Assembly (NCBI RefSeq): GCF_004358445.1
Contig: NZ_CP037951.1
Span: 2,715,501 to 2,779,500 of the forward strand
Reading direction: 5' to 3'
Length of the DNA: 64,000 bases
Source of the DNA: Parashewanella tropica
Lineage (GTDB): Bacteria > Pseudomonadota > Gammaproteobacteria > Enterobacterales > Shewanellaceae
Numbering within the stretch: position 1 is the stretch's first letter; every line of letters begins with the position of its first letter. Below are positions 54,148 to 58,179 of the stretch, piece after piece. Made by a program: the position numbers and the translations under genes. The notes below the pieces were generated by a model. The model made no database searches and was not told the DNA's origin. It saw only the letters and a list, made by a program, of their open reading frames with translations.

Positions 54148-54858
54148 ATGAGCATTAATGCGCTACTGTTAAGCAGCTCAAAAGCTGAAGATACGCCCTA
54201 TTTGAGCCATGCAATTCCGTTTATCAAGCCTCTGACTGAAAACGCTAAGAAATGGTTATTTATTCCTTATGCGGGTGTAAGTATTAATTACGATACCTAT
54301 ACCGATATTGTGGTTGCCGCATTAGCTGAATTGAATATCGAAGTGTCGAGCATTCATAATCATGCTGATCCCAAAAAAGCAATTGAACAAGCTGACGGCA
54401 TCATGGTTGGTGGCGGTAACACCTTCCATTTATTAAATGAGCTATACCGCTTAGACATTTTGCAACTGATCAAAGACAAGGTTAATCAAGGTAAACCATA
54501 TATCGGCTGGAGTGCTGGCTCTAACATCACAGGCTTAAGTATTCGTACGACCAATGATATGCCAATCATTGAGCCACCATCGTTTAATGCATTAGGTTTA
54601 TTACCGTTTCAGCTAAATCCACATTACACCAATTACCAAGCTCCGGGTCATAATGGTGAAACTCGCGCTCAACGTTTATTAGAGTTCACTATGGTCGACC
54701 CACACACGCCTGTGGTTGGTATTGCCGAAGGCACAGCGTTATATCGCCAAGGTGATAAGTTGAGTTTATTGGGTAATAAAGAAGCGTATTTGTTTAGTGG
54801 TGACCAACAAGAGATCCCAATCCCTGTTGGCTCGGATTTATCGCATTTATTGGGTTAA
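54148..54858 (+). CDS. pepE: Dipeptidase E (alpha-aspartyl dipeptidase)
   Basis: The 236-residue S51 peptidase cleaves Asp-Xaa dipeptides. The nucleophile Ser lies in GWSAGSNI and the family motif [13 protein letters not shown] is present. It has no signal peptide. The gene is bordered downstream by the structured repeat region. Confidence 0.93.
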
Positions 54859-54931
54859 CTTTCGAGGTTTCGAAGCCTCTAGTTAGTTTTGGTACTGTGT
54901 GTAATTAACACCTTAGGGTCATACCCAACGG

Positions 54932-55186
54932 CACTTCTTGGTGCTGCGCATCAATCAGCTAAAGTCGTGGGTTTACCACCCACACCCGTGTTAGAGGGGG
55001 TTCTCCAGCAAATCCCCTCTAACTACTCCCCGTGCCGCCCCGACGAAGCTAAACGTTTAAGGTCTTATTGAATAAATGGCTAACGTCTCTGATGGTACAT
55101 CCATGAACCCCAGAGCCTAGCCCGACGTCCATGTCGGGCTTACGCCATTGTTCATTCAATCACATTAGAAACAGCTTCGAAGGGGG
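54932..55186 (+). repeat. Multi-hairpin structured repeat, copy A
   Basis: This is a chain of stem-loops: TTGGTGC/GCATCAA (54937-54953), GTGGGT/ACCCAC, GTTAGAGGGG/CCCCTCTAAC, then a three-way junction. The junction is closed by ATTGAATAAATGGC with GCCATT...ATTCAAT (55067-55160) and contains GCCCGAC/GTCGGGC. An inverted homologue lies at 57221-57475. Differences between copies keep the pairing. No protein is encoded. Most of the 610-base gap between pepE and the transposase is this repeat plus the IS end. Confidence 0.75.
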
Positions 55187-55243
55187 AAAAATTGAAGACT
55201 GCAAGAGTATCTGGAGTAACCTGAATCATTTTTGCCCCAATAT

Positions 55244-56549
55244 ATGGTACGTCCCGTTATTGCAACTAGAGTTAAAAATAACGAGCTGATTTGCGCTAAT
55301 ATATTCAGAGTCTTTTTGAGACCTTCATTAGTCTCAGCTCTATGATGAGGTATGCGCCAGACTGTCCTCACAAAGCGAAAAGCATTTTACATTGCTGTTT
55401 GGGGCAACAGGTCATCAGTCTGGTGGTCTAACCGTTGTGTCATCTTTTACTCTCACTGCAAATTTTGGCTATATTCTGATTTCAAAAGACTTTTTATTGA
55501 CTAAAACTGCCCAGGCTATACGGGCTATTTTGTTGGCTAATGCAACTACAGCAACGTTAAAAGGCTTTCGTTTTTTAAGGTTGATAAGCCATGAACCAAA
55601 GTATTTCTCTGCAGATTTATCTCGCCACAAAATAGACCTCGCACCATGGATGAATAGTGTTCTCAGCTCTTTATTTCCACGTTTTGATATTCCAAGTAAT
55701 ATGGTTTTTCCACCTGTAGAGTGCTGGAGGGGAACAAGCCCAATCCATGCTGCGAAATTTCGTCCATTTTTGAAGTCGCTTGGTTCACTAACAGATGATA
55801 CACAAGCGCTTGCGACAACAGGACCTATGCCTGGGATACTTTGTAATTGTTTAACTTGCTCATTATCAGCAAGAATTCTCTCAACTTTATTCGCTTGTGA
55901 TGCTATACGCTCATTAAGGTTCAGATAGTGTTCATGTAACTCTGTTAACTCAAAAACAATTAGGGGTGGAAGATGTTGATTCTTATCAGCTAGCCATTGA
56001 AACAGACCTTTCATAATAGAGTGTCCTTTTGGCAAACTTATCCCGAATTCAAGAAGAATTGAGCCTATTCTGTTCATGCATGCGGTTCGCTCTCTAATAT
56101 ACCCATTACGAATTTTTTGAATGGTCGAGATAACTTGAGCTGATTCTGTTTTTGGAGACGAGAACCTCATAGTTGGTCGAGAAGCGGCTTCAGCAATAGC
56201 ATCGGCATCAATGAAATCATTTTTATTAGTTTTAACGTATGGCTTTACATATTGGGGAGGGATTAACTTAGCAGTATGTCCAAACTCAGAACATTTTCTC
56301 GCGAGCCAGTGAGAGCCGCCGCACGATTCCATAGCTATGATCACCGGCTCATGAAATGCCAAAAATTCGAGTAGCTTTTGGCGAGTAAGCTTTTTCTTAA
56401 ATAACCGTTGACCAGATTGGTCATGGCCAACTAAATGAAAAGAGTTTTTACCTAAGTCGATTCCAATAATGTGTGGAGTATTCATTTGGCACTTCCTTTA
56501 AAGGCTACATCAGTTGCAGTTTAACTGTATGCAGGGAGGGACGTACCAT
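55244..56549 (-). mobile_element. IS1111-type insertion sequence (IS110 family)
   Basis: ATGGTACGTCCC (55244-55255) and GGGACGTACCAT (56538-56549) are perfect 12-base inverted repeats around the transposase gene. Short subterminal repeats of this kind mark the IS1111 group; the true tips lie a few bases outside. About 210 non-coding bases lie downstream of the transposase (55256-55468), the side where IS1111 elements are reported to encode a bridge RNA. Confidence 0.8.
55469..56485 (-). CDS. IS110/IS1111-family transposase
   Basis: The 338-residue recombinase has the N-terminal DEDD (RuvC-like) domain: GIDLGKNSF, AMESCGGSHW and KNDFIDADAIAEA. The C-terminal transposase-20 domain shows LQSIPGIGPVVASACVSSV and the helix-hairpin-helix-like part, with the serine-containing STGGKTILLGISKRGNKELR. 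It looks full length, so the element may be active. Confidence 0.92.
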   Translation of the reverse strand: MNTPHIIGIDLGKNSFHLVGHDQSGQRLFKKKLTRQKLLEFLAFHEPVIIAMESCGGSHWLARKCSEFGHTAKLIPPQYVKPYVKTNKNDFIDADAIAEAASRPTMRFSSPKTESAQVISTIQKIRNGYIRERTACMNRIGSILLEFGISLPKGHSIMKGLFQWLADKNQHLPPLIVFELTELHEHYLNLNERIASQANKVERILADNEQVKQLQSIPGIGPVVASACVSSVSEPSDFKNGRNFAAWIGLVPLQHSTGGKTILLGISKRGNKELRTLFIHGARSILWRDKSAEKYFGSWLINLKKRKPFNVAVVALANKIARIAWAVLVNKKSFEIRI

Positions 56550-56661
56550 CTCATTAAGCGTGCCAACCCTTCATATCAATTTAATCTTTTATGGAAGTAT
56601 AAAATCTCTAATAATTGATTTTAGGATTGAAAGGATTATTCAATACAGATACCTTTTGGAG

Positions 56662-56676
56662 TGTTATAACGTATCA
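56662..56676. promoter_or_regulatory. Candidate Zur box before rpmE2
   Basis: TGTTATAACGTATCA resembles the Zur box core (TGTTATA...TATAACA), but the right half is poor. It lies 21 bases before rpmE2, where zinc repression of these paralogues usually acts. Confidence 0.3.
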
Positions 56677-56696
56677 AAATGACGAGGTGAAAATTT

Positions 56697-56957
56697 ATGA
56701 AAAAAGGTATCCACCCGGAATATAATTATGTTGTTTTTAGAGATTCCAGTTCAGGCACTGACTTTCTGATCCGCTCTACTTGTAAAAGTGATAAGACAGT
56801 TACTTGGAAGGATGGAAATATTTATCCATTGATTCACTTAGATATTTCTAGTGCATCTCATCCAGTATATACAGGAGAAAAACAACAAACCAAGTCAGAA
56901 GGTAGAGTTGCACAGTTCAATAAACGTTTTGGTTTTGCTGGTTCTAGTTCTCATTGA
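56697..56957 (+). CDS. rpmE2: Zinc-independent ribosomal protein L31 type B
   Basis: The 86-residue protein matches L31 type B: KKGIHPEYNYVVFRDSSSG, then WKDGNIYPLIHLDISSASHPVYTG. It lacks the CxxC zinc motifs of the housekeeping L31. Such paralogues replace zinc-bound L31 during zinc starvation. The ATG follows GAGGTGA. rpmJ2 follows 20 bases later. Confidence 0.93.
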   Translation: MKKGIHPEYNYVVFRDSSSGTDFLIRSTCKSDKTVTWKDGNIYPLIHLDISSASHPVYTGEKQQTKSEGRVAQFNKRFGFAGSSSH

Positions 56958-56977
56958 AGAGTTAGGAGGCTTATATT

Positions 56978-57121
56978 ATGCAAGTACTTAGTTCACTGAA
57001 GAGCGCGAAAAGTCGTAGTAAAGATTGTCAAGTTGTCAGACGTCGAGGCAAGATTTACGTAATATGCAAAAGCAATCCCCGCTTAAAGGCTCGTCAAGGT
57101 TCTGCAAGAAAATCTAAATAA
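56978..57121 (+). CDS. rpmJ2: Zinc-independent ribosomal protein L36 type 2
   Basis: The 47-residue protein ([14 protein letters not shown] then [20 protein letters not shown]) is the YkgO type of L36. It lacks the full C-C-C-H zinc set and has only two cysteines. The ATG follows GGAGG. With rpmE2 it forms the usual ykgM-ykgO-like pair expressed under zinc limitation. Confidence 0.92.
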
Positions 57122-57220
57122 TGATTTAATGCTAGAGAAATGATCTTTTCTCTAGCTAGGATTTGTCCAAAAATAAGCTAGCACCCAAGTTTTAGTATCC
57201 TCAAATCGAAGAGGTAACCT

Positions 57221-57475
57221 GAGTCCCCTTGAAGCTGTTTAGGGGTTAATTGAATATAAAATGGCGTGAGCTCGACATGGACGTCGAGCTAGTCTCTGAG
57301 GTACATGGATGTACCATCAGAGACGTTAGCCATTTATTCAATTATCACCGAAACGCTCAGCTTCGTGGGGCGGCACGGGGAGATGTAAGAGGGGGAATGC
57401 TGATGTTCCCCCTCTTTCACGGGTGTGGGTGGTAAACCCACGACTTTAGCTGACTGATACGCCGTATCAGGAAGT
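57221..57475 (-). repeat. Multi-hairpin structured repeat, copy B
   Basis: Read on the minus strand it has the same order as copy A: CTGATAC/GTATCAG, GTGGGT/ACCCAC, AAGAGGGGGAA/TTCCCCCTCTT. A three-way junction follows, closed by ATTGAATAAATGGC with GCCATT...ATTCAAT and containing GTCTCTGA/TCAGAGAC and GCTCGAC/GTCGAGC. The first stem differs from copy A at two pairs with both partners changed. It fills most of the 371-base gap between rpmJ2 and bioD. Confidence 0.75.
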
Positions 57476-57492
57476 AATATAAAAAACTCTAC

Positions 57493-58179
57493 CTACAACA
57501 ACCCACTAACATCCAAATACTCAGCAGCCCTCTCAACCGAAGCATCAGCCAAATAAGGGATTACCCCTAACAAAGGTGCCTTAATAGCGTTTTTCAAAAA
57601 AGCTAAATTTTCAGATTGTTGCAACATATCAGGGTCAACATGGTTCGCTACCCAACCAGCGATTTCTAATCCATCAGCTAGAATAGCTTCTTGCGTTAAA
57701 ACAGCATGGTTCAAACAACCCAATTTCATGCCAACAACCAAAATCACTGCTAACTTCTGTTTCTCTACAACCTGCGACAAATACTTACCGTCATTGAGTG
57801 GTAATCGCCAACCACCAGCCCCTTCGATCAAAGTAAAGTCAGCTTGTGGGATTTGACGAAAAACAGCTTCCACCTTGTCTGCGGTTAATTCAAAACCGAC
57901 TTGTTTTGCTGCAATATGAGGTGCAATTGCTGGCTCAAAACTGATTGGATTAACGGTTTGATAATCGACTTCTGAGTTCATGGCTGAAATCAGCGATAGT
58001 GCATCGCTATTTCTTAATCCTTCTTCTGTTTGCTCACAGCCAGAGGCGATAGGTTTAATGCCTAGTGTTGATATGATTTTATTTTGATTGCGAGCATGAT
58101 TATTAACTGCAATTAAAATCGCAGAAGCAGCCAACGTCTTACCGCTATCGGTATCTGTACCCGTAATGAAGTATTTCAT
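57493..58179 (-). CDS. bioD: Dethiobiotin synthetase
   Basis: BioD makes dethiobiotin from DAPA, CO2 and ATP. The 228-residue protein has the P-loop TGTDTDSGKT and IEGAGGWRLPL. It is the last gene of bioB-F-C-D on the minus strand, one base from bioC. Confidence 0.95.
   Translation of the reverse strand: MKYFITGTDTDSGKTLAASAILIAVNNHARNQNKIISTLGIKPIASGCEQTEEGLRNSDALSLISAMNSEVDYQTVNPISFEPAIAPHIAAKQVGFELTADKVEAVFRQIPQADFTLIEGAGGWRLPLNDGKYLSQVVEKQKLAVILVVGMKLGCLNHAVLTQEAILADGLEIAGWVANHVDPDMLQQSENLAFLKNAIKAPLLGVIPYLADASVERAAEYLDVSGLL

Follow-up and report, generated by a model that had tools for sequence, protein, structure and literature searches.

Inverted, folded TwoAYGGAY arms in Parashewanella tropica as the likely ends of a small non-autonomous mobile gene cassette

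We analyzed a pair of structured inverted repeats in a 64,000-nt stretch of the Parashewanella tropica genome (GCF_004358445.1, contig NZ_CP037951.1, positions 2,715,501 to 2,779,500; hereafter, the window). The pair spans positions 54932–57475 of the window and, with a probability that we put at about 0.6, represents both termini of a small mobile gene cassette that is non-autonomous. The arms are paired and read outward, are under selection as folded single strands and enclose unrelated cargo at different loci; empty sites exist in related genomes, and the contents next to an orthologous arm differ. Such cassettes most likely form a family with folded ends resembling the RNA family RF01731 (TwoAYGGAY) and with differing accessory genes. 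The parts of the window element, including an insertion sequence (IS), are as follows.

54932..55184, minus strand: left arm, B type, reading outward (inverted repeats; RF01731 score 38.8 bits, below the gathering cut-off of 43; inner box by eye)
57225..57475, plus strand: right arm, A type, reading outward (inverted repeats; RF01731 score 49.7 bits, above the cut-off)
55046..55181, minus strand: TwoAYGGAY domain of the left arm (Rfam match below cut-off)
57230..57361, plus strand: TwoAYGGAY domain of the right arm (Rfam match)
54990..55023, minus strand: hairpin X of the left arm (helix 7 of the covariation count)
57384..57419, plus strand: hairpin X of the right arm (covariation count and sequence reading)
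54961..54983, minus strand: hairpin Y of the left arm with the 3′ tag CGACTTT (helix 8 of the covariation count)
57425..57447, plus strand: hairpin Y of the right arm with the 3′ tag CGACTTT (covariation count and sequence reading)
54938..54954, minus strand: terminal hairpin Z of the left arm (by eye; outside the covariation count)
57454..57470, plus strand: terminal hairpin Z of the right arm (fold and sequence reading)
55192..55209, minus strand: inner B box, on the side of the cargo 5′ end (by eye; common to c03, c04, c09, c10, c13 and c16)
57202..57213, plus strand: inner A box, on the side of the cargo 3′ end (by eye; common to c05, c08, c11, c12 and c15)
56697..56957, plus strand: cargo gene rpmE2, type B ribosomal protein L31 (NCBIfam NF002462, E 9.9e-37)
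56978..57121, plus strand: cargo gene rpmJ2, type B ribosomal protein L36 (NCBIfam NF002021, E 6.6e-25)
55469..56485, minus strand: IS110-family transposase (NCBIfam NF033542, E 5.1e-100)

A mechanical repeat search delimited two inverted repeats, I1 (55039–55184 / 57225–57370, 146 nt, 82% complementary) and I2 (54933–55041 / 57367–57475, 109 nt, 83% complementary). Read outward, the two arms folded with z values of -8.2 and -4.9 against 200 shuffles, none of which was as good in either case. These results confirmed the two inverted structured copies of about 250 bases that a first-pass annotation of the window had described, and the profile matches listed above bore out its statement that the pair brackets rpmE2-rpmJ2 and an IS. 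A change in the junction arm from CCCGAC/GTCGGG to CTCGAC/GTCGAG that it had pointed out is visible in the sequence. The hairpins it had drawn are real, but the proposed series of three hairpins and a three-way junction had to be corrected to the TwoAYGGAY domain followed by hairpins X, Y and Z, with inner boxes in addition. Its suggestion of a new structured RNA was not quite right, because the core is the known family RF01731. In the discovery report, TwoAYGGAY is entered as a probable RNA from the human gut, gamma-Proteobacteria and Clostridiales (Weinberg 2010, PMC2864571), and the Rfam 15 paper includes it with two additional covarying pairs (PMC11701678). The core with two AYGGAY loops is common to that family, known as an RNA of unknown function, and to the arms described here, in which it forms the inner part of a cassette end that has further hairpins and often an inverted partner.

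Selection on the fold was evident from an alignment of 44 Parashewanella arms, hand-picked from search matches; partial or interrupted arms were excluded, as were some full-length arms (L059 right, L060, L063, L064 left). With a structure of 62 base pairs, 92.5% of cells were paired, and two-sided changes occurred at 38 of the 62 pairs. The covariation score was 0.377, as compared with 0.060–0.105 when partners were slid by one to three columns, a comparison favored by the fact that the structure was drawn on the right arm of the window. Shuffles matched the real arms in 0 of 500 cases on four of five measures and in 14 of 500 on the fifth. The architecture of RF01731, two AYGGAY-loop hairpins on a long closing stem, was present with covariation (helices 1–6), the AYGGAY loops being shortened or altered in a minority of arms. 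In hairpin X, 98.1% of the cells were paired, with two-sided change in 10 of the 11 pairs. Hairpin Z, compared by eye between the left and right arms of the window, showed C-G to T-A and A-T to G-C changes and one A-C mismatch. Covariation over many copies, on which the first-pass annotation had staked its proposal, was thus strong against both slid and shuffled versions. The other outcome that would have spoken against it was decayed ends of a known IS; we saw no known IS that shares these ends.

The right arm also folded better than its shuffles when read on the complementary strand (z -9.4), as hairpins do, and folding energy by itself is therefore no guide to the strand. The distribution of wobble pairs is. 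On the outward strand, 2,691 cells held 112 G-U and 14 A-C combinations and 189 other mismatches; the cells of this count are not independent of each other, and G-U was seen at 32 pair positions as compared with 8 for A-C. The bias held for both orientations, with G-U to A-C ratios of 60:5 in minus-strand arms and 52:9 in plus-strand arms. Since a role confined to the duplex would not favor G-U, this excess indicates that the outward strand is the one that folds. The outward strand of each arm is therefore selected to fold, as RNA or as single-stranded DNA, as the first-pass annotation had proposed.

The 4.22-Mb, one-contig genome of the window (G000; G000–G004 denote genomes of the same genus) contains 17 copies of RF01731, of which 14 score above the Rfam cut-off. 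One copy is single, and the other 16 lie in seven clusters, two of them with a third copy. In each cluster the left copy is on the minus strand and the right copy on the plus strand, with 963–2,041 nt between them. Every cluster encloses a different, unrelated gene. The products are a protein with DUF4062, one with a RES domain, others that belong to no family and, in the window, the type B L31 and L36 proteins. In an alignment of the 17 copies, the order from the inside outward is inner box A or B, TwoAYGGAY domain, X, Y and Z. Hairpin Y ends in CGACTTT in most copies of the 17-copy alignment; hairpin Z varies in sequence and is weak or absent in a few. The boxes were clear by eye in five clusters, each with an A arm opposite a B arm, and ambiguous in the other two; among the five, one cluster has a second B arm and another an A-like third arm. 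The 3′ end of the cargo pointed towards the A arm in all five. The outer hairpins fall into a few types, and their assortment is independent of the inner domain: identity between c03 and c13 is 99% in the outer part and 80% in the inner part, whereas c03 and c04 share 97% inside and 54% outside.

Further repeats were noticed in some loci. In Shewanella, Y-Z hairpins stand in tandem at the outer ends of L172, about three times on both sides, and also of L173. Another structured motif, at about 3860–3980 of L170, has an ATGGAT loop and AAGGACGTATT and seems to be a separate repeat of a related kind. A short repeat resembling repetitive extragenic palindromes (REPs), CTGG..CCTG..CAGG, occurs near or between arms in L036, L038, L049, L057 and L058 and recalls tagged REPs.

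We then examined the distribution of the motif and of its pairing. RF01731 was present in four of five genomes of the genus and, at E 0.001, in 74 of the 146 genomes sampled from the family (29 above the cut-off; two of five genera), a survey with stricter filters that drop weak matches. Across the class it was found in 24 of 369 sampled genomes (16 above the cut-off; 22 of 272 genera), and in none of 14 control genomes. The paired layout recurred in other Parashewanella and in a large genus that is probably Shewanella. Beyond the family, 20 loci were fetched, and 11 of them showed clear inverted pairs: ten from one genus (L107–L116) and one, L123, from another family. Pairs were thus seen in two other gamma-proteobacterial families. 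The arms of these pairs are mostly about 100–250 nt apart, with 3.7 kb in L111. Within the family, 101 loci yielded 160 arms when only matches of at least 120 model positions were counted, 26 shorter ones being dropped. Neighbors less than 3.5 kb apart were in minus/plus order in 51 of 74 cases, the others being minus/minus (12), plus/plus (8) and plus/minus (3). The 51 gaps fell into two ranges, 57–355 nt (28 pairs) and 653–2,743 nt (23 pairs). The unselected counts, those of G000 and of G120 (in which all 18 Rfam places were fetched), gave 7 of 9 and 7 of 10, respectively.

The genes between the arms are diverse. Among 36 cargo open reading frames (ORFs) of at least 85 aa from 23 loci, no mutual homology was detected at E 1e-3. 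Pfam names included DUF4062, RES, KAP NTPase, AAA_21, lipase, trypsin-like, methyltransferase, short-chain dehydrogenase, superinfection immunity and DUF2726, and many proteins had no family; the cargo scans covered the main ORFs, without those up to 75 aa long and one of 85 aa. The cargo of L069 resembles HNH_5 nucleases, below the Pfam cut-off (25.4 of 27.5 bits). When ten cargos were submitted to PADLOC, two matched clearly (L087, PDC-S20, E 1e-95; L082, AriA-like, E 2e-25), L095 matched weakly and seven did not match, so that the label "defence islands" would be too strong. G+C content was lower in the cargo than in the flanks in all 19 pairs compared, by 8.3 points on average; the comparison takes in intergenic parts of the cargo and, for the window, the IS110, and the window difference was just 1.9 points. 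Apart from the IS110 transposase of the window and the IS66 accessory proteins of L239, both of which look like passengers, no recombinase was seen in the scanned cargo. The IS110 element (about 55246–56548) has an inverted GGTACGTCCC close to both ends and, by eye, adjoins the inner B box; it is probably a later insertion into the cassette near that box. No second IS110 was found among the cargo proteins scanned, and IS110 was set aside as a mobilizer, being present in only one of the cassettes scanned.

Two kinds of comparison between genomes speak for mobility. First, pepE and bioD, separated by the 2.6-kb element in the window genome, stand tail to tail in G002 and G004 with at most about 10 bp between the aligned ends. 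In G003 the same interval is occupied by a different insert, roughly 3.5 kb long, in which a 921-aa ORF but no arm was found; by eye this ORF (L233, 1068–3833), located at the same convergent site, is ankyrin-like. In G001 a different arm follows pepE, and bioD is on another contig. Second, downstream of metH in two Shewanella loci, L082 and L161 (genomes G017 and G101), a continuous alignment at 85% covers the flank and the whole left arm, and the contents diverge just past the inner box, with a 2.0-kb AAA ATPase cassette in one and about 100 nt before the right arm in the other. The empty pepE/bioD sites and the metH difference support the non-autonomous mobile element proposed in the first-pass annotation. 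Arm matches within about 3 kb downstream of metH were found in 12 of 21 loci, one of them partial (L162); these 21 comprise 19 of 20 fetched stretches plus L087 and L082 and were chosen partly for visible copies. Partial second metH 3′ ends were also noticed about 1.3–5 kb downstream in G117, G083, G089, G081, G044, G133 and G010, and such duplicates resemble traces of islands integrating into a gene end. At mutS, the flank and an arm are 88% identical between G000 and G001; by eye, the X-Y hairpins have been replaced, and the sequence inside the shared arm differs; in G004, a genome without RF01731 copies, mutS lies close to rpoS.

The gene context of the pairs was compared for 40 of the 51 minus/plus pairs, after removal of duplicates and without L088, with a flanking ORF of at least 100 aa required within 700 nt. 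Cargo-bearing pairs lay between convergent genes in 11 of 20 cases and between divergent genes in none of 20, and the 20 cargo-less pairs were distributed over convergent (3), divergent (4) and tandem (13) contexts. As background, convergent contexts made up 55 of 271 cases across the loci and 12 of 51 within the window.

The cassette reading implies a sequence of events that we can outline from these patterns. An enzyme encoded elsewhere would recognize the arms as folded single strands and insert the unit in trans, and recombination between homologous arms would later swap cargo and rearrange the arm modules. The rpmE2-rpmJ2 cargo of the window would subsequently have been invaded by the IS110 element.

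A history of recombination alone has to be weighed most seriously against this. The arms would then be old, fixed structured repeats that serve solely as footholds for RecA-dependent swapping of cargo from incoming DNA, much like the minimal mobile elements of Neisseria, with no present transposition. The arm does stay in place while the contents differ at metH and mutS, data that such a history fits equally well. Seeming decayed arm remnants (by eye) at metH in L160, L162, L163 and L165, the mosaic of arm modules and the scanned cargo proteins, free of any recombinase besides the IS110 and IS66 pieces, are also in its favor. It is weaker on the empty sites and the many dispersed pairs: copies at many unrelated sites, cargo-less pairs of similar size and empty sites together require an insertion step at some time. 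We consider this explanation unlikely, if a serious competitor.

Another explanation is that the arms are functional RNAs (trans-acting RNAs, insulators or 3′ processing signals) that protect or regulate accessory genes, mobility being incidental. The strand-specific covariation, with the outward strand selected in both arms, would fit, and Rfam classes RF01731 as cis-regulatory. However, the table of the discovery report scores TwoAYGGAY as a probable RNA and not as cis-regulatory (PMC2864571), the opposite orientation of the arms and the existence of cargo-less pairs are unlike a regulator of cargo, and promoter-like sites in 54850–57500 were not in excess (4 found, 5.7 expected). We regard this explanation as distinctly improbable.

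The arms could also derive from a DDE transposon that has long terminal inverted repeats and a transposase that has become rare or been lost, as in miniature inverted-repeat transposable elements (MITEs) or mobile insertion cassettes. The accounts of mobile insertion cassettes, MITEs and Tn3-derived inverted-repeat miniature elements (TIMEs) in PMC4133298 and PMC10969869 likewise describe non-autonomous units with inverted ends and small empty as well as cargo forms, and the cargo-less forms of about 600 nt found here beside cargo forms recall the TIMEs (PMC4133298). The ends described here differ in that they are modular folds of 220–250 nt, and selection acts on the fold of one strand over more than 200 nt instead of on a short end in duplex form. 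Within a pair, moreover, the outer hairpins of the two ends are often unlike. No parent transposase with these ends was found in the scanned cargos, DDE families not having been searched genome-wide. On this evidence, a DDE origin appears quite doubtful.

The first-pass annotation had raised the possibility of a relative of IS200/IS605, but two results turned against that link. The left and right ends of IS200/IS605 elements are not inverted repeats of each other, unlike the arms here. In addition, the Y1 transposase (PF01797, E 0.001) had no match in G120, G035, G137 and G095, four of eight copy-rich genomes with 18, 16, 22 and 15 RF01731 copies, respectively (G035 being one contig and the others drafts), whereas G004, of the same genus as the window, has 18 Y1 matches and no copy. 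Y1 is therefore unlikely as a general mobilizer, even though it is matched in G000, G002, G003 and G058 (1, 10, 1 and 1). The broader idea of a non-autonomous relative of IS200/IS605 or of the REP-associated tyrosine transposases (RAYTs) would account for the short tag after the terminal hairpins and for inverted pairs like those of REP dimers. As described in PMC3733652, REPs, their hairpin-forming doublets (REPINs) and bacterial interspersed mosaic elements (BIMEs) are likewise extragenic, structured and often inverted, but REPs measure 20–40 bp as compared with about 220 nt for the arms; the units here are several times larger and carry genes, and no dependence on RAYT or Y1 was seen. We therefore hold this relationship to be very unlikely. 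Retro-insertion of a structured RNA by a reverse transcriptase of the group II intron type, which structured 3′ ends on the selected strand might suggest, is least credible of all, as RVT_1 (PF00078) had no match in six of the eight copy-rich genomes (G000, G003, G120, G035, G137 and G095) and one each in G002 and G058, and G004 has 85 matches and no copies. The RVT_1 matches of G004, many in open frames of about 429 aa, amount to a massive expansion, and this genome has no TwoAYGGAY copies; we presume them to be reverse transcriptases of the group II intron type.

Several observations weigh against the cassette reading itself, in addition to the equally good fit of recombination to the metH and mutS data. 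No mobilizing enzyme was found in searches for Y1 and RVT_1, with integron integrases, other tyrosine recombinases and DDE transposases not searched genome-wide. Outer hairpin types that are often unlike within one pair would be odd for classical terminal inverted repeats, and 189 of the 2,691 cells are mismatches other than A-C. Many arms lack a partner above the threshold (160 arms, 51 minus/plus pairs), and some Shewanella loci were chosen for a pair that was already visible, so that the pairing counts of G000 and G120 alone are unselected. The Parashewanella arm profile matched none of the 20 loci from outside the family; the layout outside Shewanellaceae is consequently carried by the Rfam core and the inverted repeats. 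No target-site duplication could be read at the empty pepE/bioD sites, because these belong to diverged species, and the mutS comparison is limited by the G001 contig, which stops about 150 nt inside the arm. The preference for convergent sites is modest and not general, being confined to cargo-bearing pairs. Finally, the right arm had no blastn-level match in plasmids and phages; one narrow pattern scan of viral contigs likewise gave no match.

The proposed cassettes share features with known systems of gene exchange. The pdif modules of Acinetobacter, like the cassettes here, have inversely oriented flanking sites. Their recombination depends on an enzyme that the module does not encode, as we propose for the present cassettes, inside which no recombinase was found in the cargo scanned. 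The XerCD dif sites of pdif modules measure about 28 nt, whereas the best dif-like match in the 44 arms was 19/28 (mean 15.4; shuffles 17, mean 14.5), with one dif sequence as the query, and no dif-like sites were seen. In the minimal mobile elements of Neisseria, different genes lie between conserved flanks and are exchanged by recombination; here the conserved flanks are structured arms repeated at many loci. Integron gene cassettes are small and have structured recombination sites, with one attC per cassette instead of the two inverted arms seen here. The core motif is thus known, as are non-autonomous cassettes; their combination is the new part, and there is a real chance that it represents a new class. 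We found no link between TwoAYGGAY and cassettes in the open-licence literature; the older literature on Shewanella mobile elements may mention one.

More tentatively, TwoAYGGAY arms may mark a previously unrecognized class of gene-capture cassettes in gamma-proteobacteria, in which an enzyme of the host or of an element, neither a Y1 transposase nor a reverse transcriptase, would read both arms as folded single strands (ssDNA or RNA) to insert the unit, and interchangeable cargo, defence-like ATPases included, would be traded through the arms. Because the arms can serve as bait, the missing enzyme is a concrete question. If the cassette reading is true, an RNA family for which no function was given in 2010 would gain a role as the ends of mobile cassettes and not as a gene regulator, and gamma-proteobacteria would have a route by which small accessory genes, some of them defence-like, are gained and swapped.

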